From positions 124,001 through 188,000 of the forward strand of contig RYFE02000004.1 of the NCBI GenBank assembly GCA_004138175.2: DNA of 64,000 bases, read 5' to 3'. The stretch is from Chloroflexales bacterium ZM16-3. GTDB taxonomy: Bacteria; Chloroflexota; Chloroflexia; Chloroflexales; Chloroflexaceae. The notes beneath the pieces were generated by a model, which saw nothing but the letters and a program-made list of their open reading frames with translations, did no database searches and was not told where the DNA came from. How positions within the stretch are numbered: position 1 is the first letter of the stretch; each line of letters opens with the position of its first letter. This document shows positions 6,084 to 27,254 of the stretch, piece by piece. Made by a program: the position numbers and the translations under genes.

Positions 6084-7109
<1,026 letters not shown>

Positions 7110-7245
7110 GGGTCGTGCCTCCTTCTCGATAGTATAGACTCGCAAACATATATGAGCGAAGCAGTTGTGACCTTATGGGGTGCCCGGTCGGCGACAGCTG
7201 CGGGGCTGATATGTCTGCGAAAACACGCAATATGTGGCAGGTGCC

Positions 7246-7254
7246 ATTATAGCA
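7246..7254 (-). promoter_or_regulatory. Extended -10 promoter of gap
   Basis: On the minus strand this reads TGCTATAAT. It would start a transcript near 7239 with a leader of about 130 bases before the gap ATG. No good -35 is seen. Confidence 0.6.
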
Positions 7255-7287
7255 CGCTTTGTTGCGGTGCGTCCTCTTAGGCAGGTG

Positions 7288-7296
7288 TGCTACAAT
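7288..7296 (+). promoter_or_regulatory. Extended -10 promoter of CvpA-like gene
   Basis: TGCTACAAT, the same word found upstream of several other genes here. A start near 7303 rules out translation from the GTG at 7287 and supports the ATG at 7332. Confidence 0.6.
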
Positions 7297-7331
7297 CAGT
7301 GGTAGAAGCTCGCGATGGGAGAGATGCTGCC

Positions 7332-8111
7332 ATGGTGATGACGATACTTTCAGTGGCGACCTTGGGGGTGCTTGGGCTGTTCGGCTTCTTCCGCGGTGTG
7401 CGCCGTGGTCTGATCGCAGTTGCTGGCACGCTTCTCGGCGCAGTGCTGATTGACCTCTGGCAGGCGCGCTGGTCGGCATGGCTGCGCACCCAGATGGAGC
7501 CGCCAGGCTGGGTCACGTTCTTTATGACTGCGGCGATCTTTCTGCTGGTGGCGCTGCTGGTGGGCTATGGCGGTAGCCTGCTCCTGCCCCGTGAACGAGA
7601 CCCGAAGGCGAAGGAGCCTGGCCTGTTCGACCGGCTGCTCGGCGCGTTTATCGGGGCGCTGAATGGAGCGCTGATTGTGAGCTATCTGCTGCGCTATGCC
7701 AACGAGAACTGGCCGTCGGGCGAAGCTGCGCGCATGATCGCCGGTTCGTTGGTGGCTGGTATTCTCGACGCATGGCTGCCCTGGTTCATTCTGGCGATGG
7801 TCGTCACTACGACGGTTTTTGTAACGCTACGTGGCACGGTGCGGGTCTCGCGGGCGCTCAGCCGACAGGCCCCTGTTGTACCCGCGACGGGTGCATTCCC
7901 TAATGCACCACCTCCCTCTAAGGCACCATCTCCCTCCAAGGCACCACCTCCCTCTAAGGCACCATCTCCCTCTTCCGCAGCCGCTTCGGGATCCGCCGCG
8001 AAGGGCGCGGGTACACCTCAGGCTGCCGCTCCTACCCCGCCGAAGACGACTGCCGAGCAAGACCGGATCCTCCTCGAAAAAATCATCCAGGCTACTGATA
8101 AGAAGCCGTAA
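7332..8111 (+). CDS. CvpA-like membrane protein with proline-rich tail
   Basis: A 259-residue protein. The first 175 residues contain four hydrophobic segments (TILSVATLGVLGLFGFF, GTLLGAVLIDLW, TFFMTAAIFLLVALLVGYGG, AWLPWFILAMVVTTTVFV), and FFRGVRRGL after the first resembles the CvpA family. The tail contains about four P-S-K-A-P units (15-bp DNA period, 7910-7975) and a Q/K-rich end. GGGAGAGA precedes the ATG at 7332. The family assignment is tentative. The tail is probably cytoplasmic or periplasmic linker. Confidence 0.6.
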   Translation: MVMTILSVATLGVLGLFGFFRGVRRGLIAVAGTLLGAVLIDLWQARWSAWLRTQMEPPGWVTFFMTAAIFLLVALLVGYGGSLLLPRERDPKAKEPGLFDRLLGAFIGALNGALIVSYLLRYANENWPSGEAARMIAGSLVAGILDAWLPWFILAMVVTTTVFVTLRGTVRVSRALSRQAPVVPATGAFPNAPPPSKAPSPSKAPPPSKAPSPSSAAASGSAAKGAGTPQAAAPTPPKTTAEQDRILLEKIIQATDKKP

Positions 8112-8139
8112 GACCCGCGCAAGGTGCGGGTCTTACGGC
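8105..8139. terminator. Terminator hairpin between convergent genes
   Basis: A 14-bp perfect stem gccgtaagacccgc / gcgggtcttacggc with a 7-base loop. It overlaps the stop codon of the CvpA-like gene and lies 18 bp from the end of the pyrophosphorylase gene. Confidence 0.75.
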
Positions 8140-8156
8140 TACGCTTTTGCCTGTGG

Positions 8157-9269
8157 CTAGAACGAGATCGCCTGCTCGCCCAGGCTCGTGCCGGGCCAGA
8201 TGCGGATGCCGCGCTCCAGACGGTTCTCTGCCCCCAGACTACACCCATCGCTGATGATCGCCCCGTCGGTGATCAGGGTCTTTGCGCCGATCTGGTTGTT
8301 GCGTCCGAGCACGCAGTTGCGCAGTGTCGCCCCTTCCCCGATCTGGTTCCCATCCCAGAGCACCACCCCCTCAAGGGCGGCCTCCGCGCCGATGTGGCAG
8401 CCGTTGCCGATAACTGTTGGCCCGATCACCCGCGCCCCGCGCCCGATTGTCACCCCGTGACCGATCACCAGCGGCCCCACCATCTGGGCCGTCGGGTGGA
8501 TGTCCGCGTCGCCCTCTAGCCAGATCCGGTCGGCGATCTGCGTGCCACGGAAGGAGTAGCGCACCTTGCCGATCAGGATGTCGTGGTGGACATCCAGGTA
8601 GGTCTGCGGCTTGCCGATGTCGGTCCAGTAGGCCCGCGAGGGGAATCCGAACATCGAGTCGCCGGTCTGGAGTACCACCGGGAAGAGCCCGCGCTCGAAC
8701 ATGTAGAACTGGTTCGGCGGCACGTAGCGCAGCATCTCTGGCTCGATGATATAGGTGCCGGCGTTGATCAGGTTGGTGGTGATGTCCTCGGCCCGTGGTT
8801 TTTCAAGGAAGCGGTGTACCCGGTTGTCCTTCTCCATTTCTACCAGGCCGAACTGCGTCGGATCGTCAACCGGGGTGAGCGAGATCGTCACCTTGCTCTG
8901 CTTCTCGCGGTGGTAAGCCAGCATCGCCTGCAGGTCAAGGTCGGTCATCACATCGCCGTTAAATACGAAGGTCGTGTCGTCAAGCAGATGCTCGACGTTC
9001 TTCACCGCGCCGGCGGTGCCGCGCGGCTCGGGCTCCTCAATGATATGCAGCTTCAGGCCCAGGCGCGATCCGTCGCCGAGGGCAGCCACGAAGCGCTCGG
9101 CGAGGTATTGGACAGCCAGCACAACCTCGTCAATCCCCTGGTCGCGCAGACGGAGCAGCATCGACTCGATGAACGGCTGGTTGACCAGCGGGATCATGGG
9201 CTTTGGCGTGTTGCAGGTGAGCGGACGCAGGCGTGTGCCTAGTCCTCCGACGAGGATCACTGCTTTCAT
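8157..9269 (-). CDS. NDP-sugar pyrophosphorylase (nucleotidyltransferase + left-handed beta-helix)
   Basis: A 370-residue enzyme joining a sugar 1-phosphate to an NTP. The nucleotide-binding signature MKAVILVGGLGTRLRPLT is at the N-terminus, followed by NTPKPMIPL. FVFNGDVMTDLDL holds the metal-binding aspartate. From about residue 245 hexapeptide repeats form a beta-helix (VGPLVIGHGVTIGRGARVIG and onwards). The length and C-terminal helix match mannose-1-phosphate guanylyltransferases or glucose-1-phosphate thymidylyltransferases of the ManC/GCD1 type; which sugar cannot be decided. The divergently neighbouring epimerase (9441-10397) is the natural pathway partner. Confidence 0.88.
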   Translation of the reverse strand: MKAVILVGGLGTRLRPLTCNTPKPMIPLVNQPFIESMLLRLRDQGIDEVVLAVQYLAERFVAALGDGSRLGLKLHIIEEPEPRGTAGAVKNVEHLLDDTTFVFNGDVMTDLDLQAMLAYHREKQSKVTISLTPVDDPTQFGLVEMEKDNRVHRFLEKPRAEDITTNLINAGTYIIEPEMLRYVPPNQFYMFERGLFPVVLQTGDSMFGFPSRAYWTDIGKPQTYLDVHHDILIGKVRYSFRGTQIADRIWLEGDADIHPTAQMVGPLVIGHGVTIGRGARVIGPTVIGNGCHIGAEAALEGVVLWDGNQIGEGATLRNCVLGRNNQIGAKTLITDGAIISDGCSLGAENRLERGIRIWPGTSLGEQAISF

Positions 9270-9440
9270 GATTTTTCCTTATGCAAATGGGTGGTGCGAT
9301 GGGTGGTGACGCTTGCGGCTGTCTGTGGAGCGCGAACCTGGGCAGGGGCATCACCCACTCTATACTATCGGGTAGATGTGGGTTGTAGCTGAAGAATTGC
9401 TAATTGTCTGATGACAGTTTGGTTGTTAAAGGGCGCAGCA

Positions 9441-10709: not shown

Positions 10710-10833
10710 GTGTCTCAAATAGGATTGCTGCATTTCTATAAACTCAGATATATACGCCCCATATTGTATAGCTTTGTCTTAAGATTGAGTGTCGCAATAC
10801 GGCGTTCAGCGCAGGCTGAGAAGGCAAACAGGC

Positions 10834-11778
10834 ATGGCACAGCCGCACTTCTTATCACAATTTTCTGACAAGCCGCGCTACAACACAAAGGCTGTAGCTC
10901 AGGAGACAGGCGTCCCCGCCGATACGTTTCGGGCCTGGGAGCGGCGCTACGGCGTGCCTCGCCCCCAGCGGACTGAGGGCGGCCATCGCCTGTACTCCGA
11001 GCGCGATATTGCGACCATCCGCTGGCTCCGTGATCGGACGGCAGAGGGGCTGACGATCAGCCAGGCGATCGCGCTGATGACGGACGGTGCCGAGTCGAAC
11101 TTGGGCTGGCTCAACACGGCTGTCGATACGGAGCCGCATACCTGGGATCGCCTCAACAACCGGCTGTACGCCGCTCTGATCGACTTCGACGCCACACGCT
11201 CCGAGCAGATCCTCGGCGAGGCGTTTGCGATCTACCCGCTTGAGGAGGTCTTCCTGAAGCTGGTGCAGCCGACGATGATCGAGATCGGTGAGCAGTGGCA
11301 CGCCGGCAAGATTAGCGTTATCGCCGAGCACTTCGCCACGCAGTTCATCCGGCGGAAGCTGTCGGGCCTCTTTAATACCTACAATATCACCGACGGCCGC
11401 GGCTTAGTGATGATCGGCTGCGCGCCTGGTGAGCAGCACGATCTGGGCGCCCTGATGATCGCGGTGTTCCTGGTGCGCCACGGCTGGCAGGTGATCTATC
11501 TCGGCGCCGAGGTGCCGATCCGCGATCTGCTTGAGACGGTGCGCCAGATTCAGCCCGATATCGTCTGTATGGCTGCGTCCACCACCGAGACGGCTACGCA
11601 GCTTCTGGAGGTCGGTCGGGCTATCCAGCAGCTGCCGCCACCCTTCCCGGCATTTGGCTATGGCGGTCGGGCCTTTAACTTGAACCCGATGCTGACCCAG
11701 AAGATGCCCGGCACCTTCCTCGGCCGCGATGCCCAGGAGGTGGTGGACTCGGTGGCCGATATCCTTAGCGGGCGATAG
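10834..11778 (+). CDS. carH: CarH-type MerR-family, B12-binding light-responsive repressor
   Basis: A 314-residue regulator. Residues 14-80 form a MerR winged helix (YNTKAVAQETGVPADTFRAW, then ERRYGVPRPQRTEGGHRLYS). A four-helix bundle contains W155, then nine residues, then E165-H166, the W-x9-E-H signature of CarH photoreceptors. The Rossmann B12 domain has E200-Q-H202-D-L-G205, where H202 would be the lower cobalt ligand. In known CarH proteins adenosylcobalamin holds a DNA-bound tetramer in the dark and light breaks it. The ATG at 10834 was preferred over a GTG at 10789 because GAGAAGG lies before it. The phytoene synthase gene follows directly, the classical CarH target. Confidence 0.87.
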   Translation: MAQPHFLSQFSDKPRYNTKAVAQETGVPADTFRAWERRYGVPRPQRTEGGHRLYSERDIATIRWLRDRTAEGLTISQAIALMTDGAESNLGWLNTAVDTEPHTWDRLNNRLYAALIDFDATRSEQILGEAFAIYPLEEVFLKLVQPTMIEIGEQWHAGKISVIAEHFATQFIRRKLSGLFNTYNITDGRGLVMIGCAPGEQHDLGALMIAVFLVRHGWQVIYLGAEVPIRDLLETVRQIQPDIVCMAASTTETATQLLEVGRAIQQLPPPFPAFGYGGRAFNLNPMLTQKMPGTFLGRDAQEVVDSVADILSGR

Positions 11779-11876: not shown

Positions 11877-12086
11877 TCACGTATTATTAAGGCATAGAAT
11901 TTGTTTCTTGGAAGAATACGCCCTTGCAGCATGCTCTGATGAGCTGATTGCCGACGCGCCCGCTCCTTCTCTCTCTCTGCATCTTTTCCAACTCGTACTG
12001 CTCCTTCGCCCTTTGCTCCTGTGACGCCCACAATGTCGCCGAGGTGTAGTTCCCGTGTGTCCTCATTAGGCATAAAGGAGCGCCGT

Positions 12087-13079
12087 GTGACGATGAAATC
12101 ACTCTCATCGCTGGCCCTGGGTACCGGTGCCTCTTCCATATCGCAGCCGCTCCCCGCCGAGGAGCAGCTGGCGTTGCTCTTTCACCTCACCGAGCTTCCG
12201 CCACAGGTCGGCTTCGACGAGCACCCGCCGCAGCCTCCCCAGCGCATCGCTGAGGCATACCGTCGCTGCGAGGAGATCATCCGCGAGAGCTCAAAGAGCT
12301 TCTTTTTGAGCACGCAGTTTCTGCCTGCCAAGAAGCGCCGGGCGGTGCGGGCATTCTATGCTTTCTGCCGCGTCACCGACGATACGGTCGATCAGGCCAC
12401 CGGCGACGCGACCCGCGCCCTCGCCGAGTGGGTTCAGCAGGCTCGGGCCGCGCACCCGCTTACCGATGACCCGGTGCTCTTGGCCTGGCACGATACGCGC
12501 AAGATCTACAATCTGCCCGCCGCCCTGGTGGATGAGCTGCTGGCTGGCATGGCGATGGACTTGACGATCCACCGCTACGCCACCTTCACCGACCTGTGGC
12601 TCTACTGCTACCGCGTGGCCTCGGTGGTCGGTCTGCTGAGCATGGGTGTCACCGGGGCGGCTCCGGGCGCTGCGCCCTACGCGATCAAGATCGGCGTGGC
12701 ACTTCAGATGACCAACATCCTGCGCGATGTCGGCGAGGACGCCAGGCGCGGGCGGGTCTACCTGCCCCAGGAGGATCTGGAGCGCTTTGGGCTGACCGCC
12801 GATGATATTCTGAACCATGTCTACGATGAGCGATTCCGTAGCCTGATGCGCTTTGAGGTGGAGCGCACCTATCGTCTCTATAACGAGAGCTGGCCGGGGG
12901 TTGGCCTGCTCCCGCCTGATAGCCGATTCGGTGTGGCCGCCGCCGCCAGGGTGTACCAGGGTATCCTTGACAATCTGGTGGCGAACGACTACGATTCGTA
13001 TACCAAACGCGCCTACCTTACCCTGCGCGAGAAGCTGGTCCGCCTGCCACGGATCTGGCTGGACGTGCAGAAATTTTGA
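12087..13079 (+). CDS. crtB: Phytoene/squalene synthase family protein (probable phytoene synthase)
   Basis: A 330-residue enzyme predicted to condense two geranylgeranyl diphosphates to phytoene, the first committed carotenoid step. The two aspartate-rich motifs are visible: RVTDDTVDQATGD near residue 100 and NILRDVGEDARRGRVYLP near residue 225. The second is typical of CrtB rather than HpnC/HpnD. RRCEEIIRESSKSFF at the N-terminus matches the family start. A GTG at 12087 sits six bases after AGGAG, while the ATG at 12093 is at poor spacing; either is possible. It follows the CarH-like regulator in the same direction. Confidence 0.88.
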   Translation: MTMKSLSSLALGTGASSISQPLPAEEQLALLFHLTELPPQVGFDEHPPQPPQRIAEAYRRCEEIIRESSKSFFLSTQFLPAKKRRAVRAFYAFCRVTDDTVDQATGDATRALAEWVQQARAAHPLTDDPVLLAWHDTRKIYNLPAALVDELLAGMAMDLTIHRYATFTDLWLYCYRVASVVGLLSMGVTGAAPGAAPYAIKIGVALQMTNILRDVGEDARRGRVYLPQEDLERFGLTADDILNHVYDERFRSLMRFEVERTYRLYNESWPGVGLLPPDSRFGVAAAARVYQGILDNLVANDYDSYTKRAYLTLREKLVRLPRIWLDVQKF

Positions 13080-13173
13080 GTGTTACGTGTTGGGATTTGT
13101 TCAATACTTATGGAGAGTCCAGGGAGGGGAATCCTCCCTGGACTCTCCTCTATGTACCCAGGTATCCTCACTT

Positions 13174-14442
13174 ATGCGCAGATTTCTCCCGATCCTCACC
13201 GCCCTCGCCCTCTCTGGATGTAGCCTCGGCTTCGGCCCGCAGGCGGGCAGCACCGAGCCGACGGTGGCGGCCATCCAGACGCAGGTTTCCGCCGTTCACT
13301 CTGCCGCCGACCGGCCCTCGCCAACCCCGGGCTTGCCCCTGCCGACTGATGCCCCGCTGCCCACCATCCCGCCTCAGCCCACGATTAACCCGGATCTGGG
13401 CAGCGCGCTGCGCAGCCAGGAGGAACTGCTTGTCGCGCTGTATCGACGGGCCAGCCCAGCCGTGGTGAGCATTGAGGTGGTGGGCGACCCCAGTGCCGGG
13501 CTGCCATCGGGCCACCCGACGATCCCTAATCTTCCCGAGGGGCCGACCTCGCAGGGCTCCGGGTTTCTCTACAACGACCAGGGCTACATCGTTACGAATA
13601 ACCATGTGGTTGAGGGCTCGTCTGAGCTCCAGGTGCGCTTCTACGACGGCAGCACCAGCATTGGTCGGATGATCGGCACCGACCCCGACAGCGACCTGGC
13701 GGTGATCAAGGTGGCCCAGCTGCCGCCTGGCGTGGCCCCGCTGCCTCTGGCCGACTCACGCCTGGCGGCGGTGGGGCAGACGGCGGTGGCGATCGGCAAC
13801 CCCTTCGGCGAGCAGAACACCCTGACGGTGGGCGTGATCAGCGGGCTGGGCCGCACGCTGCGCGGGCCAAGCCGCGACTTCGGCACCTTCAGCATCCCGA
13901 ATATCATCCAGACCGATGCGGCGATCAACCCGGGGAACTCGGGCGGCCCGCTGCTGAATATTCGCGGCGAGGTGATCGGGGTGAACACGGCGATCGCCGT
14001 GACCGCAGGCGGCGGCTCCTTCGAGGGGGTGGGCTACGCGGTTCCCTCACGCGCGGTGGAGCGGGTGGTGCCAGCCCTGATCCAGAGCGGGCGCTACGAG
14101 CATCCCTGGATGGGGATCAGCATGCTCCCGCTCGACGCGCTGTTCGCCGAGCGCTTCGGCCTGAGCACAGTCAAGGGCGTGCTGGTGACGGGGGTGCAGC
14201 CGGGTAGCCCGGCGGAGCGGGCCGCGATCCAGCTCGGCACGCATGTGGAGCAGTATAACGGGTTGGATGTCTACGTCGATGGCGATATCATTGTCGCCAT
14301 CGGCGGGCAGCCCGTAGCGAGCGGAGACGACCTTGTTGGCTACCTCGACCAGGAGTACGGCGTGGGTGACACGATCACCCTGAGCATCCTGCGCGATGGG
14401 CAGCCCCAGGATGTGCAGCTGACCTTGGCGGCGCGGCCTTAG
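13174..14442 (+). CDS. HtrA/DegP-type serine protease, predicted lipoprotein
   Basis: A 422-residue envelope protease or chaperone. The N-terminus MRRFLPILTALALSGCSLGF is a lipoprotein signal with the lipobox cysteine at 16. A low-complexity P/T-rich linker reaches about residue 80. The trypsin-like domain has H144 (NNHVVEG), D174 (SDLAVIKV) and S256 (NPGNSGGPLL), a complete triad. One PDZ domain follows (about 330-422, with GVLVTGVQPGSPAE). A longer frame upstream was rejected because it overlaps the phytoene synthase gene. The ATG at 13174 begins the signal peptide. Family role: degradation of misfolded exported proteins. Confidence 0.92.
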   Translation: MRRFLPILTALALSGCSLGFGPQAGSTEPTVAAIQTQVSAVHSAADRPSPTPGLPLPTDAPLPTIPPQPTINPDLGSALRSQEELLVALYRRASPAVVSIEVVGDPSAGLPSGHPTIPNLPEGPTSQGSGFLYNDQGYIVTNNHVVEGSSELQVRFYDGSTSIGRMIGTDPDSDLAVIKVAQLPPGVAPLPLADSRLAAVGQTAVAIGNPFGEQNTLTVGVISGLGRTLRGPSRDFGTFSIPNIIQTDAAINPGNSGGPLLNIRGEVIGVNTAIAVTAGGGSFEGVGYAVPSRAVERVVPALIQSGRYEHPWMGISMLPLDALFAERFGLSTVKGVLVTGVQPGSPAERAAIQLGTHVEQYNGLDVYVDGDIIVAIGGQPVASGDDLVGYLDQEYGVGDTITLSILRDGQPQDVQLTLAARP

Positions 14443-20101: not shown

Positions 20102-20608
20102 TTGGCTCAGCGAGTCCTCGTCCTCAACGCAAGCTACGAGCCGCTTCAGCTTATCTCGGTGCGCCGTGCGGTGATCCTCCTGCTCCAGGAGAAGGCCGAG
20201 CTGATTGAGGCTGCCGAGCAGCAGCTGCGTGCTCGCCATATCGCCTTGGATATTCCTCTGGTGATCCGCCTGGTGCGCTACATCCGCATCCCGCGCCGCC
20301 TGAAGCTGCCCTGCTCGCGCCGTGGCATCTTCGCCCGCGACCGCGAGATATGTCAGTACTGCGGCCAGCAGCCTGGCCGCGCCTCCCTGACGATAGACCA
20401 TGTGCTGCCGCGCTCGCAGGGTGGCGCGACGACCTGGGAGAATGTGGTGACGGCCTGCCGCGAGTGCAACCACCGCAAGGGCGGGCGCACCCCCGATCAG
20501 GCCAACATGCTGTTGCTCGCCCCGCCACGGCAGCCCCAGTACCTCGCCTTCGCCCTGCTTGGCGAGATGGAGCGCCACGACGTCTGGCGCAAGTATGCCT
20601 TCAACTAG
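20102..20608 (+). CDS. HNH endonuclease family protein
   Basis: A 168-residue probable metal-dependent DNA nuclease. The N-terminus RVLVLNASYEPLQLISVRRA is typical of a bacterial HNH family. The HNH core has C-x2-C (ICQYCGQ), TIDHVLPRSQGGATTWENVV and CRECNHRKGGRTP, giving four zinc cysteines and the catalytic DH. I chose TTG at 20102, eight bases after GGGGG; GTG at 20093 is the alternative, with no ribosome site. It overlaps yraN by 14 bases. The cellular target is unknown. Confidence 0.85.
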   Translation: MAQRVLVLNASYEPLQLISVRRAVILLLQEKAELIEAAEQQLRARHIALDIPLVIRLVRYIRIPRRLKLPCSRRGIFARDREICQYCGQQPGRASLTIDHVLPRSQGGATTWENVVTACRECNHRKGGRTPDQANMLLLAPPRQPQYLAFALLGEMERHDVWRKYAFN

Positions 20609-20966
20609 GCGTGATCTGGGTGATTTCGGCGAGTCCGCCGCCCGCTCACACCTCCTGCGCGCTGGCTACGTGATCCTGACAAGCAACTGGCGCTGCCGCA
20701 TCGGCGAGATCGATCTGGTCGCCCAACAGGGCGACCAGCTTGTTTTTGTGGAGGTGCGCACTCGCCGCGCCGCTGGCCCTGTTGCCCCCGAGGAGAGCCT
20801 CTCGCCCGCCAAGAGCCGTCGCCTGCTCGCCCTCGCCGATACCTATATGGCCGAGGCCGATCTTCCCTCTAACACCCCCTGCCGGATCGACCTGATCGCT
20901 ATCGTCATTGACCGCGCTGGACGGATCGCGCGCCTCGACCATATCATCAGCGCGGTTGAAGCTTAG
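20595..20966 (+). CDS. yraN: UPF0102 (YraN) family nuclease-like protein
   Basis: A 123-residue protein with the PD-(D/E)xK-like layout of YraN: GDFGESAARSHLLRAGY, then NWRCRIGEIDLVAQQGDQLV, FVEVRTRRA and a basic helix SPAKSRRLLALADTY. The ATG at 20595 lies inside the 3' end of the HNH gene, so the two are probably translationally coupled. YraN proteins are linked to DNA repair or recombination by structure only. Pairing with an HNH nuclease supports a DNA-processing role, by inference. Confidence 0.9.
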   Translation: MPSTRRDLGDFGESAARSHLLRAGYVILTSNWRCRIGEIDLVAQQGDQLVFVEVRTRRAAGPVAPEESLSPAKSRRLLALADTYMAEADLPSNTPCRIDLIAIVIDRAGRIARLDHIISAVEA

Positions 20967-20972
20967 AGATCC

Positions 20973-23048
20973 CTACGCCTCGCCCCAGACATGAACCCGG
21001 TTGCGCCCGGCGTGCTTGGCGGCGTACAGCGCCTGGTCAGCCCGCCAGATCAGATCATCGACCGTCGACAGATCTGGTTCGGACATCGCTATCCCCATGC
21101 TGATCGTGATAGTGATCGGGCCGCTCGTCGTCTCGACCGGCGTGCTCTCGATCGTCTGGCGCAGCCGCTCGGCGATGAGGCGCGCCTGTTGCAGGCTAAT
21201 CTTCGGGCTGATAATCACAAACTCTTCCCCGCCGTAGCGAGCCACAATGTCTGATGCCCGTACATGCTTGAGGCAGCCCGCCATGAACTTCAGCACTTCG
21301 TCGCCCACCGCGTGGCTGAACTCATCATTTACCCGCTTGAAATGATCAATGTCGATGAAGATCGCTGACAGCCCATTCCCTTCATTGCGCTGATCTCGCC
21401 GAAACTCTGCCTCGGCGAGCGCGTTGAAGCGACGGCGGTTGTAGAGCCCAGTCAACGGGTCAGTATCGGCCAGCGTGTGCATATGTTGCAGCAGGAGCAT
21501 TTGCTCAAACGCGAGCGTCATCTCCTGGGCCAGCACCTGGGCGATTTTGGCATGATCGGGGCGGAAGGCATTGGGCTGGGCGCTGCTGATTGTCAGTATC
21601 CCGATCACCTCCTGCCCCTTCAGCAGCGGTACGCCCATCCAGCTCAGCAGATTATGTGGCTCGATGAGGCTCAGCGGGCTGATGTTGGTGATCTCATCAG
21701 GCGTCAGGATGAGTGGTATCTGCCGCTGGATCACCAGCGCGTATGGCTGTTGCCGTACATCTCTATGCTGGCCAACCAGGCTATCATACTCGTGGCTGCT
21801 CCGCGCAGCGATCACTTGCAGCGTGTTGGACTCCCGCAGCAGCAGGATCGCCTCATCGTTAGGGATAAGTGTATGTAGGTGTATCAGCACCTGCTGGAGC
21901 ATGTGCTCGATATTCAGCTCGGCGGTCAGGCTGACCAGGAGCTTGCGCATCTCCGTCGTGATGTCGCGCTCACGGCGCAGCAGCTGCTCGGCCTCCTGGA
22001 GCGCGGCGTAGGTCTGGGCATTGGCGAGGGCCAGCCCGCACAGGTTGCTGATCGCAAGGCCGAGGTTGAGGTACTGGGTGCGATGCGCTGGGATGGCGAT
22101 GCTGTGTATCGCAATCAGGCCGAGGATCTCCTGCTGATAGTGGATTCGCAGGTAGAATCCGCTGCTCACATCCATCAGGGCGTAGTCGTCGTGCATGGTC
22201 GCAAGGGTCTGCTCAAGCAGATCGGTGGGGCTATCATCGCCCTGCTGCGAGAAGACGCGCGTGATCTTGCCCCCGGCGATCTGGGCGTACCGCATATCGG
22301 TGCAGCCGAACAGCATGGCAAACAGATCCAGGATCGCGCTGATCGTGGCCTCTTCAGACTGGATCTGGGACAGCCGCACCAGCAGATCGAATGCCATGGC
22401 GTACTCGGCGATCTTGCGGTTGGCCTCCTGGAGCATCTGCCGCTGCTGGCGCTCAGTGTCGCTCAGCCGCAACTCCAGGACGATCTTGGCCAGAAAGAGC
22501 TTCAGGTAGTCGAGCCCGACAGAGCGCACCCGGTACGGCCGATCCACATAGGCGGCCATTTGCTCCAGCTCTGCGCGCGCATGCGGGCTCGTGCCGGTAT
22601 CGAGCAGCAGGAGCTCGCGCGCGCATTCGCGGAAGAACTGCTGCGCCCCTGCCTGGTCGAACCCCCAGCGTTGGAGCTGGCCGCGCCAGCCCTTGAGCCA
22701 GCTCGGCGTGAGCAGATAGGCGCCCGCGCGGGTCTCGCTCTCCCAGATCTCGCGGCCGGACACCATGGTGAGGCAATGCTCCAGCTGCACGAGCCTGCCC
22801 TGTAGCTCGGGCGAGGCCGCCGCGTCGCCACGCGGGAGCGAGCAGGCGCCAAGGATCAGCACCTCGCTGCCATCAGGCGGGGGCGACAGCAAGAGCTGTT
22901 CGACGCGATCCTCCGGGCGTAGCGCGCGGCTGCACGGCAATGGGGCGTACGCCTCGACCCGCACCCAGGGGTAGCCGAGCTCACCGATGGCGATCTCAAC
23001 ATCCTCTCGGTAGTAGGCGCAGACACGGAGGCAGAGCTTAGGTTTCAC
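20973..23048 (-). CDS. Diguanylate cyclase with N-terminal DUF1638-like domain and GAF domains
   Basis: A 691-residue signalling protein with no transmembrane segment. Residues 1-190 resemble DUF1638 (SEVLILGACSLPRG, RAGAYLLTPSWLKGW, YRVRSVGLDYLKLFLAKIV), a domain found beside corrinoid methyltransferases. A helical linker and two GAF-like parts (about 215-345 and 375-510) follow. The GGDEF domain (about 525-690) has DPLTGLYNRRRF, DIDHFKRVNDEFSH and an intact RYGGEEF, so it should make cyclic di-GMP. Its start overlaps the UroD-family gene by 11 bases. The DUF1638 assignment is from memory of the family pattern and is moderate. Confidence 0.8.
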   Translation of the reverse strand: MKPKLCLRVCAYYREDVEIAIGELGYPWVRVEAYAPLPCSRALRPEDRVEQLLLSPPPDGSEVLILGACSLPRGDAAASPELQGRLVQLEHCLTMVSGREIWESETRAGAYLLTPSWLKGWRGQLQRWGFDQAGAQQFFRECARELLLLDTGTSPHARAELEQMAAYVDRPYRVRSVGLDYLKLFLAKIVLELRLSDTERQQRQMLQEANRKIAEYAMAFDLLVRLSQIQSEEATISAILDLFAMLFGCTDMRYAQIAGGKITRVFSQQGDDSPTDLLEQTLATMHDDYALMDVSSGFYLRIHYQQEILGLIAIHSIAIPAHRTQYLNLGLAISNLCGLALANAQTYAALQEAEQLLRRERDITTEMRKLLVSLTAELNIEHMLQQVLIHLHTLIPNDEAILLLRESNTLQVIAARSSHEYDSLVGQHRDVRQQPYALVIQRQIPLILTPDEITNISPLSLIEPHNLLSWMGVPLLKGQEVIGILTISSAQPNAFRPDHAKIAQVLAQEMTLAFEQMLLLQHMHTLADTDPLTGLYNRRRFNALAEAEFRRDQRNEGNGLSAIFIDIDHFKRVNDEFSHAVGDEVLKFMAGCLKHVRASDIVARYGGEEFVIISPKISLQQARLIAERLRQTIESTPVETTSGPITITISMGIAMSEPDLSTVDDLIWRADQALYAAKHAGRNRVHVWGEA

Positions 23049-24096
23049 GATCCATCCAGTGGAGCGGGTAGGTCCCCCAGCGCTGGACAGCCTCAGCGAT
23101 CGCCAGCAGGGTCTCCTCTGAAACCTGAAAGGGGATCTCGCCGTGGTTATCTGCCAGGATGAAGCCGCCGCCCGGCCCGGCGGCGGCGATCGCCGCCTTG
23201 ACCTTCGCCTCAGCCTCGGCGGGGGACCAGTGGCGCATCTCGATCCCGTTCAGGTTGCCGAGCAGGCTGATCGTGCCGGCGGCGGCGCGCTTCAGCTCGG
23301 CCAGATCCTCCAGCGTGCTGACGCCGATCAGCACGCTGCCGGTCTTGGCGACATCGGCCACCAGCGGCAGGCAGCGCCCGGAGGCGAAGTGGAAGGCCAC
23401 TGGCCCATTGATGCGGGCGCAGACGCGGCTGCTGATCGGGTGATCGAGACGCAGGGAGAGATCATGCGGCACAATGGTGGTTGAGGCAACCGGGTTAAAG
23501 TAGCAGATCGCGGTGGCGCCGGCCGCCAGCTGGGCGTTGGCCCACGCGACGCAGAACTCCTCGTTCAGCCGCATGAGCAGCGCGAAGAGATCCGGCTGCT
23601 CGTACATCAGGTGGAGATACGCATCGAAGCCCATCTGCATCACCGGGACCGAGAACGGGGCCATGACGACCGCGATGATCGGGGTCTCGCCCCGGCTGCG
23701 CTCGCGCAGCTGCCTGATCGTTTCCAGTGTGCGGAGCAGACCCGGAGAGTCGGCGATGGCGGGCGGCTGGAGCGCGCGGATCTGCTCGGGCCGCCGGATG
23801 AAGGGCTGTCCGGCATTCGGCGGCCCGTCCTCCGAGAAGATAACCTCGCCCCCCCAGGCCTCGACCTCGAGCGCGGCGTAGGAGAAGGCGTACAGACAGT
23901 CGCTCCGGTACTTGCGTGCCATGCGCAGCTGGCCCTCGGCCATAGATGCTGCGCTGCTGAAGTAGGACTGGATCGACATGCCGAGCTCCTGTGCGCCGTG
24001 CATCGTCACGAGCAAGCAGAGCGGGACGCGATCCGGCTCCCGGTGGCCGAGGGTGGTCAGCACCCGCTGGAGCGAGGTCATCTCGGTGGATGTCAT
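23038..24096 (-). CDS. UroD/MtaA-family corrinoid methyltransferase-like protein
   Basis: A 352-residue TIM-barrel protein of the uroporphyrinogen decarboxylase/MtaA superfamily: LGHREPDRVPLCLLVTMHG at the start, APFSVPVMQMGFDAYLHLMY in the middle, and ISLLGNLNGIEMRHWSPAEA near the end. In MtaA-type enzymes an H-x-C pair plus a later cysteine bind zinc. Here the matching place reads FHFASGRCLP and the C-terminal site LADNHGEIPF, so zinc binding and methyl transfer may be altered. It overlaps the corrinoid gene by four bases (ATGA) and the cyclase gene by 11. Likely role: methyl transfer to or from the neighbouring corrinoid protein, or sensing. Confidence 0.8.
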   Translation of the reverse strand: MTSTEMTSLQRVLTTLGHREPDRVPLCLLVTMHGAQELGMSIQSYFSSAASMAEGQLRMARKYRSDCLYAFSYAALEVEAWGGEVIFSEDGPPNAGQPFIRRPEQIRALQPPAIADSPGLLRTLETIRQLRERSRGETPIIAVVMAPFSVPVMQMGFDAYLHLMYEQPDLFALLMRLNEEFCVAWANAQLAAGATAICYFNPVASTTIVPHDLSLRLDHPISSRVCARINGPVAFHFASGRCLPLVADVAKTGSVLIGVSTLEDLAELKRAAAGTISLLGNLNGIEMRHWSPAEAEAKVKAAIAAAGPGGGFILADNHGEIPFQVSEETLLAIAEAVQRWGTYPLHWMDRET

Positions 24097-24749
24097 GGCA
24101 GCTCCTTTAGCAGCCTGCCGACATGTGTGACGGCATCGATCGCCGTCTTCCCCATCGCGTCGGCGCCGATCTCCTGCCAGAGAATCTCGTCAAAGCGAAA
24201 CGGCGCGCCGCCCACAATGATCTTTGGGCGATGGCCGGCGCGCTCCAGTTGCTGCCGCAGCTCTTTGATCCGCAGGGCCGAGGGGAGCATCAGCACGGAG
24301 ATCAGCAGCACGGCGATGCGCTCCTGGATCACTTGCGCGACCAATGCCTCAACAGTAACCTGTCCAAAGTCTCTGATCTCATACCCGCTGGCGCGCAGCG
24401 ATGCGTAGACCATGCGCTTCCCCAGCAGATGATAGTCTTCAAGGACGGCGATCGCGATGGGCGGATGGCTGATGCGCTGAATCTGCGCGGGCGGCAGGAT
24501 TGCGTCTACAATCTCCTCGCAGATGTGCCCGCTCATATAGACTTGGGCGAGCGACAGCGCCCCCTGCTCCCACTGCGCGCCGATCTGTTCGAGCGCAGGC
24601 ACGATCATCTGCTCGAACAGATTGACTGTGCCTGCTCGTTGCCCATAGGTGCTGAGGATCTGGCGTGCGGCAAAGCGATCAATCGCCAGCAGCGCCTCTA
24701 AGAACTCGTCGAGCGGCTGCGCTGAGATCGAGGAGGTAATTGTCATCAT
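24093..24749 (-). CDS. Corrinoid (B12-binding) protein
   Basis: A 218-residue protein with the methionine-synthase-like module. The helical cap covers about residues 10-85 (LFEQMIVPALEQIGAQWEQG, LAQVYMSGHICEEIV). The Rossmann domain has EDYHLLGKRMV, i.e. D-x-H-x-x-G with the cobalt-ligand histidine, followed by VLLISVLMLPSAL and KIIVGGAPF. ATG at 24749 was chosen because the promoter at 24825 lies downstream of all longer starts. It is the first gene of a three-gene overlapping operon with the UroD-family protein and the diguanylate cyclase. Confidence 0.88.
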   Translation of the reverse strand: MMTITSSISAQPLDEFLEALLAIDRFAARQILSTYGQRAGTVNLFEQMIVPALEQIGAQWEQGALSLAQVYMSGHICEEIVDAILPPAQIQRISHPPIAIAVLEDYHLLGKRMVYASLRASGYEIRDFGQVTVEALVAQVIQERIAVLLISVLMLPSALRIKELRQQLERAGHRPKIIVGGAPFRFDEILWQEIGADAMGKTAIDAVTHVGRLLKELP

Positions 24750-24824: not shown

Positions 24825-24833
24825 ATTGTAGCA
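24825..24833 (-). promoter_or_regulatory. Extended -10 promoter of the corrinoid operon
   Basis: Minus strand TGCTACAAT, 76 bp before the ATG at 24749. Confidence 0.6.
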
Positions 24834-24860: not shown

Positions 24861-25052
24861 AGGGCTGTCGCATGATGGCGGGGCATGTGCAAAGTCCCTG
24901 CCCCCCCGGCTGGCGACTGGAAGTCGCGCCAACGGGGCGCTGCGCGCCGGGCGTCGGCCTGCGCCGACGCCGCACCCGCCCGCGTAGGCGGGCGGCCAGC
25001 CGCAGGCTCCCGTGGCGCGACTTCAGCCGCCAGCGACGTTGCTCATGCCCTG
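24861..25052. repeat. Dispersed palindromic repeat B, copy 2
   Basis: It runs from agggctgtcgcatga to gttgctcatgccctg, with ctggcgactggaagtcgcgc and cgcgacttcagccgccagc as subterminal inverted repeats. It fills most of the spacer between the corrinoid operon and ppk. Confidence 0.7.
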
Positions 25053-25145
25053 AGTATGAGGGCAATGCCCCTTGCCGATCCGCTGGCGGGCAGATATACT
25101 ACAAAGTATCTTCATATGCGAAAAAAGCGTAAGGTGGCAGCCCCT

Positions 25146-27254
25146 ATGACTGTTCACGAGCCCCGCACGATCGAGGCGGTGGAGGCGATCACGCACGTCG
25201 CGCCCACCTACCTCAACCGCGAGCTGAGCTGGATTGAGTTTAACCGCCGCGTCTTTGGCGAGGCCCTTGACCAGCGCACCCCGCTTCTTGAACGCATAAA
25301 GTTTCTCGCTATCTTCGCGTCGAACTTCGACGAGTTCTTTATGATCCGCGTCAGCGGGATCATGCAGCAGATCAGCGCCGGCGTGCAGAAGCAGTCGCCC
25401 GATGGGCTGACGCCCACCGAGCAGCTGAAGGCTGTGCGGAAGGTGCTAGTGCCCCTGATCGAGCAGGAGCGCGATCTGTTCTTCAATGACTTGTTGCCTC
25501 GCTTGTCGGAGCAGGGCATTCACTTGCTGAATATGGACGACCTGAGCCCGCGCCAGCGCGTCTGGGTCGATGACTACTTTCGCAAGCAGATCTTCCCCGT
25601 GCTCACGCCCCTGGCCTTCGACAGCAGCCGCCCCTTTCCCTTCATCTCAAACCTTAGCCTGAACCTCGCGGTGATGATCCAGGACCCGCAGAAGGGTGAG
25701 CTGTTCGCCCGCGTGAAGGTGCCCGAGGTGCTGCCGCGCCTGATCGGATTGCCCGCCGAGCTCTGCGAGGGCTCCGCCGATCTGTCCACCGGCCGCCGCC
25801 ACTGCTTCGTCTGGATCGAGCAGCTGATCGCTGCCCATCTCGATATGCTCTTCCCCGACATGGAGGTGGTGCTGTCGGCCCCCTTCCGCGTCACCCGCAA
25901 CGCCGATATGGAGATCGAGGAGGATGAGGCCGATGATCTGCTCTCTAGCATTGAGCAGGGCGTGCGCCAGCGCCGCTTCGGCGAGGTGGTGCGGATTACG
26001 GTCGATAACGCGATGCCCGAGCGGATCAGCAGCCTGCTGCTGACGAACCTGAAGATCGGCCCGCGTGACCTCTACACAGTGCGCGGCCCGCTCGGCCTGG
26101 CTGACCTGATGGCGCTGATGAAGATCGACCGGCCCGACCTCAAAGACCCGCCGCATATGCCCACCCTGCCGATGGTGCTGCATAGCAGCGGTGATATTTT
26201 TGACACGATCCGTCAGGGCGATGTGCTGCTGCACCACCCCTATCACTCATTCGCCCCGGTGATCGACTTCATCCAGGCTGCCGCCGACGACCCGCATGTT
26301 CTGGCGATCAAGCAGACGCTCTATCGGGTCGGCAGCAACTCGCCGATCGTCAAGGCGCTGATGCACGCCCGCGAGCAGGGCAAGCAGGTGACGGCGGTGG
26401 TCGAGCTGAAGGCCCGCTTCGATGAGGAGAACAATATCATCTGGGCCAAGGCGCTGGAGCGCGCCGGGGTGCATGTGGTCTATGGGCTGCTTGGCCTAAA
26501 GGTACACGCGAAGCTGGCCCTGGTGGTGCGCCAGGAGCAGGACGGCATCCGCTGCTACGCCCATCTGGGCACCGGCAACTATAACGCCGGCACCGCCCGC
26601 GTCTACACCGATCTGGGCATGTTTACATGTCGCCCCGAGATTACCGCCGATGTGGTTGACCTGTTCAACTTCCTCACCGCCTATAGCCGCCAGGCCACCT
26701 ATCGCTCGCTGCTGGTCGCCCCGGTCACGCTGCGCCAGCGCCTGGTGAGCTTGGTGCGCCGTGAGATCCAGCGTCAGCAGGATCACGGCGATGGCCGGAT
26801 CATCTTCAAGATGAACGCCTTTGTCGATCACCAGCTCATCGATCTGCTCTACGAGGCATCGCAGGCAGGCGTGCAGATCGACCTGATTGTGCGCGGGATG
26901 TGCTCGCTGCGCCCCGGCGTGCCCGGCCTCAGCGAGAGTATCCGGGTGCGCAGCATCATCGGGCCGTTCCTGGAGCATAGCCGGATCTACTACTTCGAGA
27001 ACGGCGGCACGCCGGTGCTCTACCTCGGCAGCGCCGATATGATGGAGCGCAACCTCGACCGCCGCGTCGAGGAGCTCTACCCGCTCGATGACCCCTCCCT
27101 GGCCGCCTATGTCCACGATATGCTGCTGCAGACCTACCTGGCCGATAATGTGCGCGCCCATATGCTCCAGCCCGATGGCAGCTACCTCCGGCTGCGGCCA
27201 GGCGACGCCGCGCCGGTCGATAGCCAGATCCCTGAGCGGATGATTACCGCGTGA
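25146..27254 (+). CDS. ppk1: Polyphosphate kinase 1
   Basis: A 702-residue enzyme that polymerises the gamma phosphate of ATP into polyphosphate. The N-terminal domain starts YLNRELSWIEFNRRVFGEA and has FASNFDEFFMIRV. HHPYHSF and the autophosphorylated histidine region CYAHLGTGNYNAGTARVYTD are intact, and the C-terminal domain holds YFENGGTPVLYLGSADMMER. The length is standard. The ATG at 25146 is preceded by AAGGTGG; an ATG at 25116 would add ten basic residues and has no ribosome site, and longer frames run through repeat B. Confidence 0.96.
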   Translation: MTVHEPRTIEAVEAITHVAPTYLNRELSWIEFNRRVFGEALDQRTPLLERIKFLAIFASNFDEFFMIRVSGIMQQISAGVQKQSPDGLTPTEQLKAVRKVLVPLIEQERDLFFNDLLPRLSEQGIHLLNMDDLSPRQRVWVDDYFRKQIFPVLTPLAFDSSRPFPFISNLSLNLAVMIQDPQKGELFARVKVPEVLPRLIGLPAELCEGSADLSTGRRHCFVWIEQLIAAHLDMLFPDMEVVLSAPFRVTRNADMEIEEDEADDLLSSIEQGVRQRRFGEVVRITVDNAMPERISSLLLTNLKIGPRDLYTVRGPLGLADLMALMKIDRPDLKDPPHMPTLPMVLHSSGDIFDTIRQGDVLLHHPYHSFAPVIDFIQAAADDPHVLAIKQTLYRVGSNSPIVKALMHAREQGKQVTAVVELKARFDEENNIIWAKALERAGVHVVYGLLGLKVHAKLALVVRQEQDGIRCYAHLGTGNYNAGTARVYTDLGMFTCRPEITADVVDLFNFLTAYSRQATYRSLLVAPVTLRQRLVSLVRREIQRQQDHGDGRIIFKMNAFVDHQLIDLLYEASQAGVQIDLIVRGMCSLRPGVPGLSESIRVRSIIGPFLEHSRIYYFENGGTPVLYLGSADMMERNLDRRVEELYPLDDPSLAAYVHDMLLQTYLADNVRAHMLQPDGSYLRLRPGDAAPVDSQIPERMITA

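Follow-up and report, generated by a model that had tools for sequence, protein, structure and literature searches.

Within the window, a 64,000-nucleotide stretch of Chloroflexales bacterium ZM16-3 (positions 124001-188000 of contig C62 of genome G000, which totals 6.27 Mb in 127 contigs), a compact minus-strand cluster encodes a corrinoid protein (P0003), a UroD/MtaA-like protein (P0002) and a sensor built of DUF1638, two GAF domains and GGDEF (P0001). Comparative analysis suggests, with a probability of roughly 0.5, that these genes form a signalling module in which a corrinoid-UroD methyl-transfer pair would serve as the receptor for cyclases and kinases. We take this pair as the sensor input because the gene order is conserved, the outputs are swapped and the input parts co-vary. 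The module is apparently widespread and undescribed; a literature search, with most subscription papers outside its reach, found no description of a corrinoid-UroD-DUF1638/GAF sensor module. The features of the locus are:

24093-24749, minus: corrinoid (B12-binding) protein P0003, 218 amino acids; from Pfam and conservation
24420-24437, minus: D-Y-H-L-L-G cobalt-ligand motif of P0003, residues 105-110; from sequence and conservation
23038-24096, minus: UroD/MtaA-like protein P0002, 352 amino acids; from Pfam URO-D, best PDB sequence match MtaA 4ay7
23389-23391, minus: His236 of P0002, at the first zinc-ligand position of MtaA; from alignment to 4ay7
23143-23145, minus: His318 of P0002, at the C-terminal zinc-ligand (Cys) position of MtaA; from alignment to 4ay7
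20973-23048, minus: sensor P0001, DUF1638-GAF-GAF-GGDEF, 691 amino acids, GTG start; from Pfam and orthologue alignment
22455-23048, minus: DUF1638 domain, residues 1-198, with Cys10, Cys39, Cys69 and Cys92; from Pfam, model and conservation
21999-22433, minus: first GAF, residues ~206-350; from fold match and profile matches
21510-21911, minus: second GAF, residues 380-513; from Pfam
20997-21470, minus: GGDEF diguanylate cyclase domain, residues 527-684; Pfam E 9.9e-45
21219-21233, minus: GGEEF active-site motif, residues 606-610; from sequence and motif scan
24825-24833, minus: possible extended -10 element TGCTACAAT; read from the sequence

Relatives were collected by scanning named genomes with the UroD alignment, which yielded 238, and the best-scoring 80 (56 to 78% identical) were kept. 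By name, these belong to Chloroflexota, Pseudomonadota, Thermodesulfobacteriota, Nitrospirota, Bacteroidota, Verrucomicrobiota and other phyla, and many of their host genomes are metagenome bins. The corrinoid open reading frame (ORF) lies directly upstream of UroD in 80/80 loci, split in two pieces in L099 and L102, and a DUF1638 sensor lies downstream of UroD in 66/80, which argues that the association is not due to chance. Conservation of the gene order in relatives, a test that the first-pass annotation had set for its proposal, extends far beyond the family. Among the 41 genomes of the family itself, 12 carry orthologues of the corrinoid protein (48 to 100% identity, E < 1e-50), the window's own included: nine of them show the cyclase-type trio, DUF1638-GAF continues into a hybrid histidine kinase in G038 and G020, and in G018 the contig ends. 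G020 also departs from the usual order: its corrinoid gene is on the other strand from UroD and kinase, and UroD is split in two. In the class, DUF1638 is rare (14/158 genomes). The window locus itself holds all that we require of the module, namely a corrinoid protein, UroD and a DUF1638 and/or GAF sensor together. Of the 14 loci without a DUF1638 sensor, two break off less than 300 bases from UroD, and the other 12 are long enough to hold one; in 11 of these 12, UroD is followed by an ORF with the same GAF and no DUF1638 match, and L101 has neither. Since these 11 loci carry the GAF without DUF1638, it is the GAF that varies less in its presence; a strong profile match to the first GAF was obtained in 74/80 loci, the other six being L101, L155 and four at contig ends.

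Some loci carry these parts in other arrangements. L162 and L166 have a stand-alone DUF1638 gene followed by a separate kinase, and in L155 (1348-3171) the corrinoid and UroD domains are fused in that order, next to genes for a DUF1638 protein and a kinase; the host of L155, a Hyphomicrobiales bin, also carries the usual unfused pair. Versions from Desulfobacteraceae (L138 8071-8796, L157 1831-2556, L161 8178-8900, L175 3394-4173) have no DUF1638 and consist of the GAF followed by a Cys-rich tail (C-x2-C, C-x2-C), for which no Pfam family scored above cut-off in the three proteins tested. At L163, the first GAF protein is followed, ~3.6 kb downstream, by a second one with the module GAF, annotated GGDEF (12427-13512).

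The sensor output is exchanged and the input retained. A scan of 64 sensors evidenced DUF1638 in 63 (E up to 0.001), HATPase_c in 40, HisKA in 37, GGDEF in 12 and a receiver in 10. Cyclic dimeric guanosine monophosphate (cyclic di-GMP) is only the local output, as kinases are commoner than cyclases (40 vs 12 of the 64). The initial proposal that a corrinoid state could be turned into cyclic di-GMP is favoured by the DUF1638 match and the conserved gene order, but the output is exchangeable and more often a histidine kinase. On a quick UroD tree (81 rows, 55 labelled), the kinase and cyclase labels need at least four changes, two of them forced by starred branches, against an average of ~12 when the labels are shuffled; the outputs are thus also clustered on the tree. 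Adjacent genes are often further kinases, receivers and PAS proteins. The kinase version at L132 is flanked by three matches to the PP2C phosphatase profile (12-2216, 6615-7841 and 7983-9272), two of them with receivers.

Divergence across 29 loci set the input apart from the output. Correlations were high between corrinoid protein and GAF (r 0.84), corrinoid protein and DUF1638 (0.86), and DUF1638 and GAF (0.86), whereas the kinase, although part of the same chain, followed GAF and DUF1638 with r of 0.50 and 0.56, respectively. Bootstrapping placed the 95% ranges of the two differences at 0.14-0.55 and 0.09-0.56, with 0/1000 replicates at or below zero. Divergence of UroD was correlated at 0.68-0.73 with the input parts and at 0.51 with the kinase.

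The N-terminus of P0001, as the first-pass annotation had supposed, is a DUF1638 domain: PF07796 matched residues 63-183 (E 1.1e-9) with 38.8 bits, above the curated gathering cut-off of 27. Its four cysteines are conserved within a few columns (Cys10 63/65, Cys39 63/65, Cys69/70 65/65, Cys92 63/65; residue counts here and below are alignment rows, to which a few loci contribute two), and all four occur together in 59/65 rows. Residues 10, 34, 67 and 88 are strand ends in the structural model (predicted local distance difference test score 92.8) and lie close to the four cysteines, which may form a metal or thiol site. Foldseek returned no PDB match to the DUF1638 fold within the limit of E 0.001, the best having 2.9e-3, and a profile of sensor residues 1-350 gave PDB sequence matches with E of 0.51 at the lowest. 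Kinship with receiver domains was not accepted, the best VIA-align hit (6xvu, Z 6.6, root-mean-square deviation 3.1 over 102 residues) being middling. The cyclase assignment made at first stands for the GGDEF domain, with its intact GGEEF and an upstream RxxD motif in the motif scan, and for the second GAF, found by Pfam (E 7.9e-11); the first GAF, however, was missed by the Pfam search of P0001 and is recognised in it by fold alone (best Z 15.0 to 3p01, root-mean-square deviation 2.4 over 153 residues). In the Thiocapsa loci L106, L112 and L115 the cyclase motif reads GGEEL instead of GGEEF.

P0002 is a UroD-fold protein (Pfam URO-D E 4.6e-52) whose best PDB sequence match is MtaA 4ay7 (E 1.9e-13) and which is nearer MtaA/CmuA than HemE (97.2 vs 50.5 bits), with a TIGR01463 score below the cut-off of 235.4 bits. 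The zinc site of MtaA is His-x-Cys ... Cys. Aligned to MtaA 4ay7, P0002 places His236 and His318 on the first and last ligand positions and Ala238 on that of the middle cysteine, and the His-x-Cys ... Cys site of the TIGR01463 type is absent. Conservation is nearly complete for H236 (80/82), Ala238 (80/82), H318 (81/81) and E320 (81/82). An altered zinc site had been read from the sequence before, as H236-x5-C242 plus H318; both histidines bear this out, but Cys242 is kept in 58/82 rows only and is not conserved. In P0003, Pfam recognised B12-binding (PF02310, E 2.1e-16) and the cap domain B12-binding_2 (PF02607, E 1.2e-9). The D-x-H-x-x-G motif previously ascribed to it is present as D105-Y-H-L-L-G110, with D105, H107 and G110 invariant in 81/81 rows; W60 (79/80) and L67 (80/80) are likewise conserved. 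Its score against TIGR02370, the methyltransferase corrinoid protein family, was below the curated cut-off (71.6 vs 215.3 bits).

Outside the module, DUF1638 has been connected to corrinoid chemistry. In a fitness study of Phaeobacter inhibens, a stand-alone DUF1638 protein and a RamA-like protein were needed for methionine synthesis, and the study links DUF1638 to B12 reactivation and proposes no specific function for it (PMC5764234), which makes a reading of the corrinoid state by the sensor plausible. Stand-alone DUF1638 is also more abundant in Ruegeria on N-osmolytes (PMC12478193). A RACo/RamA reactivator was found in 19/44 module genomes and had no match in 25/44, among them the window's genome, which lacks a RACo_C_ter match; 33 of the 44 were selected among the 80 loci, and with several genomes incomplete, some absences may be gaps. 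Partnership with RACo does not appear to be a requirement of the module, and a DUF1638-RACo link may hold in some hosts, since 19 have the reactivator. The 25 genomes without a match fit a switch better than an enzyme that turns over. The window's genome also encodes a separate HemE-like protein (E 1.1e-128) and a MetH-like protein that matches the standard activation domain.

We propose that the UroD-fold and corrinoid proteins would form a receptor pair, UroD transferring methyl, or a comparable one-carbon group, from a small molecule to the corrinoid cobalt or the other way. Through docking of the corrinoid protein on the DUF1638-GAF portion of the sensor, its state would be read and the output domain at the C-terminus switched; that domain is a diguanylate cyclase in the window and elsewhere mostly a histidine kinase. 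The pair as input, protein docking, and methyl transfer or cobalt state as signal are all predicted from sequence comparison; what is sensed may be some methylated compound or else the state of the cobalt. Somewhat less probable is a more specific version, a new receptor class of many phyla in which UroD would accept a methyl group from a specific ligand or donate one to it, the corrinoid protein would carry the result, and the four-Cys DUF1638 site (perhaps with zinc) and the GAF would read it for kinases and cyclases. In its boldest form, a DUF1638 thiolate would accept the methyl group, by analogy with the Ada protein, which accepts a methyl group on a thiolate. The known roles of corrinoid proteins are those of enzyme components and, for CarH and photocobilins, of light receptors; if the proposal is true, bacteria would have a new way of sensing methylated compounds or the corrinoid state through ordinary kinases and cyclases. 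The module offers DUF1638 a setting for functional testing, with named isolates such as Thiocapsa, Zoogloea, Azoarcus and Desulfonema as hosts.

Several points weigh against the pair as a methyl-transfer receptor. P0002 scored below every curated methyltransferase cut-off shown, and for that reason its methyl transfer is putative. DUF1638 is absent from 12/78 loci with room for it, and RACo is present in 19 of the 44 module genomes. The correlation of UroD with the sensor (0.70-0.73) is lower than that of the corrinoid protein, and shared ancestry accounts for part of every divergence correlation, the contrast between pairs being the informative quantity. Because the survey comprised the best-scoring 80 of 238 relatives, the counts may differ in the remaining 158. 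The evidence consists of domains, gene order, swapped outputs, and conserved motifs and residues.

The main rival, which we consider unlikely yet the strongest of the alternatives, is a metabolic methyltransferase pair that the neighbouring cyclase or kinase only regulates or with which it is co-regulated. In dichloromethane mec cassettes, a sensor kinase with a PocR domain accompanies UroD-family proteins and a corrinoid protein (PMC9768040), and the two-component system of these cassettes is supposed to have such a regulatory role. In Azoarcus sp. KH32C the module even lies inside a methylotrophy island: on plasmid pAZKH (L183 17772-39011), corrinoid protein, UroD, DUF1638-kinase and a hybrid kinase stand between the formaldehyde-oxidation genes fae/fhc and a methanol dehydrogenase cluster. 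However, the fae, fhcA-D and xoxF of that island matched in 0/80 loci (E up to 1e-8, flanks of at most 7 kb and many shorter), which also dismisses methanol oxidation as a general signal. The Azoarcus methanol dehydrogenase (E up to 1e-60) has matches in 8/58 genomes, 0/25 of those tested in the window's family and 8/33 among the others; two of the eight, in G514 and G527, are ~70% identical to it. Neither a methyltransferase II nor any other metabolic gene was seen to recur beside the module, the 71 unannotated neighbours sharing no family in more than three members among the 25 of 110 families displayed. The abundance of kinases, receivers and PAS proteins nearby and the 25/44 genomes without a RACo match speak against a metabolic pair as well, and co-variation of the specific DUF1638-GAF input and the corrinoid protein is something that a metabolic regulator would not require.

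It is less likely still that the pair senses the level or type of tetrapyrrole or cobamide, UroD binding the ring and the corrinoid protein reporting its loading without methyl transfer. The UroD fold binds tetrapyrroles in HemE, which is separately encoded in the window's genome, and both the lost zinc cysteines and the many hosts without a RACo match agree with such a role; yet the two histidines at the zinc-ligand positions are conserved, and P0002 is closer to MtaA/CmuA than to HemE. A B12 light receptor of the CarH or photocobilin kind, acting in trans on the cyclase, seems very improbable. Photocobilins do join a B12 domain to a diguanylate cyclase (PMC11796333, PMC10979010), several module hosts are phototrophs, and of the published light signature GxxW, EH, GxxH, GxxxP (PMC11796333), P0003 has GxxW as G57-A-Q-W60, each in 79/80 rows. 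In place of EH, however, P0003 has VY, with Tyr71 at the His position in 77/80 rows, and GxxH is absent from it, whereas three other B12 proteins of the window's genome keep W-x9-EH; moreover, the names of many hosts mark them as sediment bacteria that are not phototrophic.

At the locus, the corrinoid and UroD genes overlap by 4 nt (24093-24096) and the UroD and cyclase genes by 11 nt (23038-23048), confirming the genes, strand and overlaps first described. The extended -10 element placed upstream of them is readable as TGCTACAAT, but a sigma-70 promoter scan lists no site at 24825-24833, and the promoter of the trio is therefore putative. The cluster is flanked by a divergent ORF (24885-27254) that looks to us like a polyphosphate kinase and a convergent one (20559-20966) that we take for a YraN-like protein. 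Elsewhere in the window, a MerR-type B12-domain protein (10789-11778, plus strand) with W-x9-EH and GxxH, presumably like the light receptor CarH, lies upstream of a phytoene-synthase-like ORF (12021-13079, plus strand). On another contig of the same genome (G000:C44, L002 491-2595, minus strand), a W-x9-EH B12 protein overlaps a GGEEF-cyclase ORF by 4 bases, a candidate for a separate light-to-cyclic-di-GMP pair.

The module thus shares parts with several known systems. Type 1 mlp clusters, which are widespread, comprise several MtaA-like proteins, a corrinoid protein and a Ram/RACE protein, and in the text available neither "sensor", "histidine kinase" nor "DUF" is found (PMC10418091); MtaA-like and corrinoid proteins and the wide spread are common to both, whereas the window's genome, without a RACo_C_ter match, has no such Ram/RACE partner. 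TIGR02370 corrinoid proteins share the D-x-H-x-x-G cobalt-ligand motif with P0003, which misses their curated score. Stand-alone DUF1638 proteins belong to the same PF07796 and have three Cys positions in common with the module (Cys10 10/10, Cys69/70 10/10 and Cys92 9/10 of ten rows), but Cys39 (0/10) occurs on the module side only; in P. inhibens the protein adjoins a RamA-like protein and a methionine synthase in split form (PMC5764234), whereas DUF1638 of the module is fused to GAF and output. The mec cassettes differ in their PocR kinase, their methyltransferase II and their proposed catabolic role (PMC9768040). Photocobilins and CarH, like the module, link a B12 domain to a diguanylate cyclase or other output, but in the module EH is replaced, no bilin part is seen, the cyclase is on another protein and UroD takes part. 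With the MtaA/CmuA family (TIGR01463, 4ay7) the module has in common the UroD fold and a companion DxHxxG corrinoid protein; its UroD differs in having His-Ala-His for the His-Cys-Cys of MtaA and in being coupled to a sensor.

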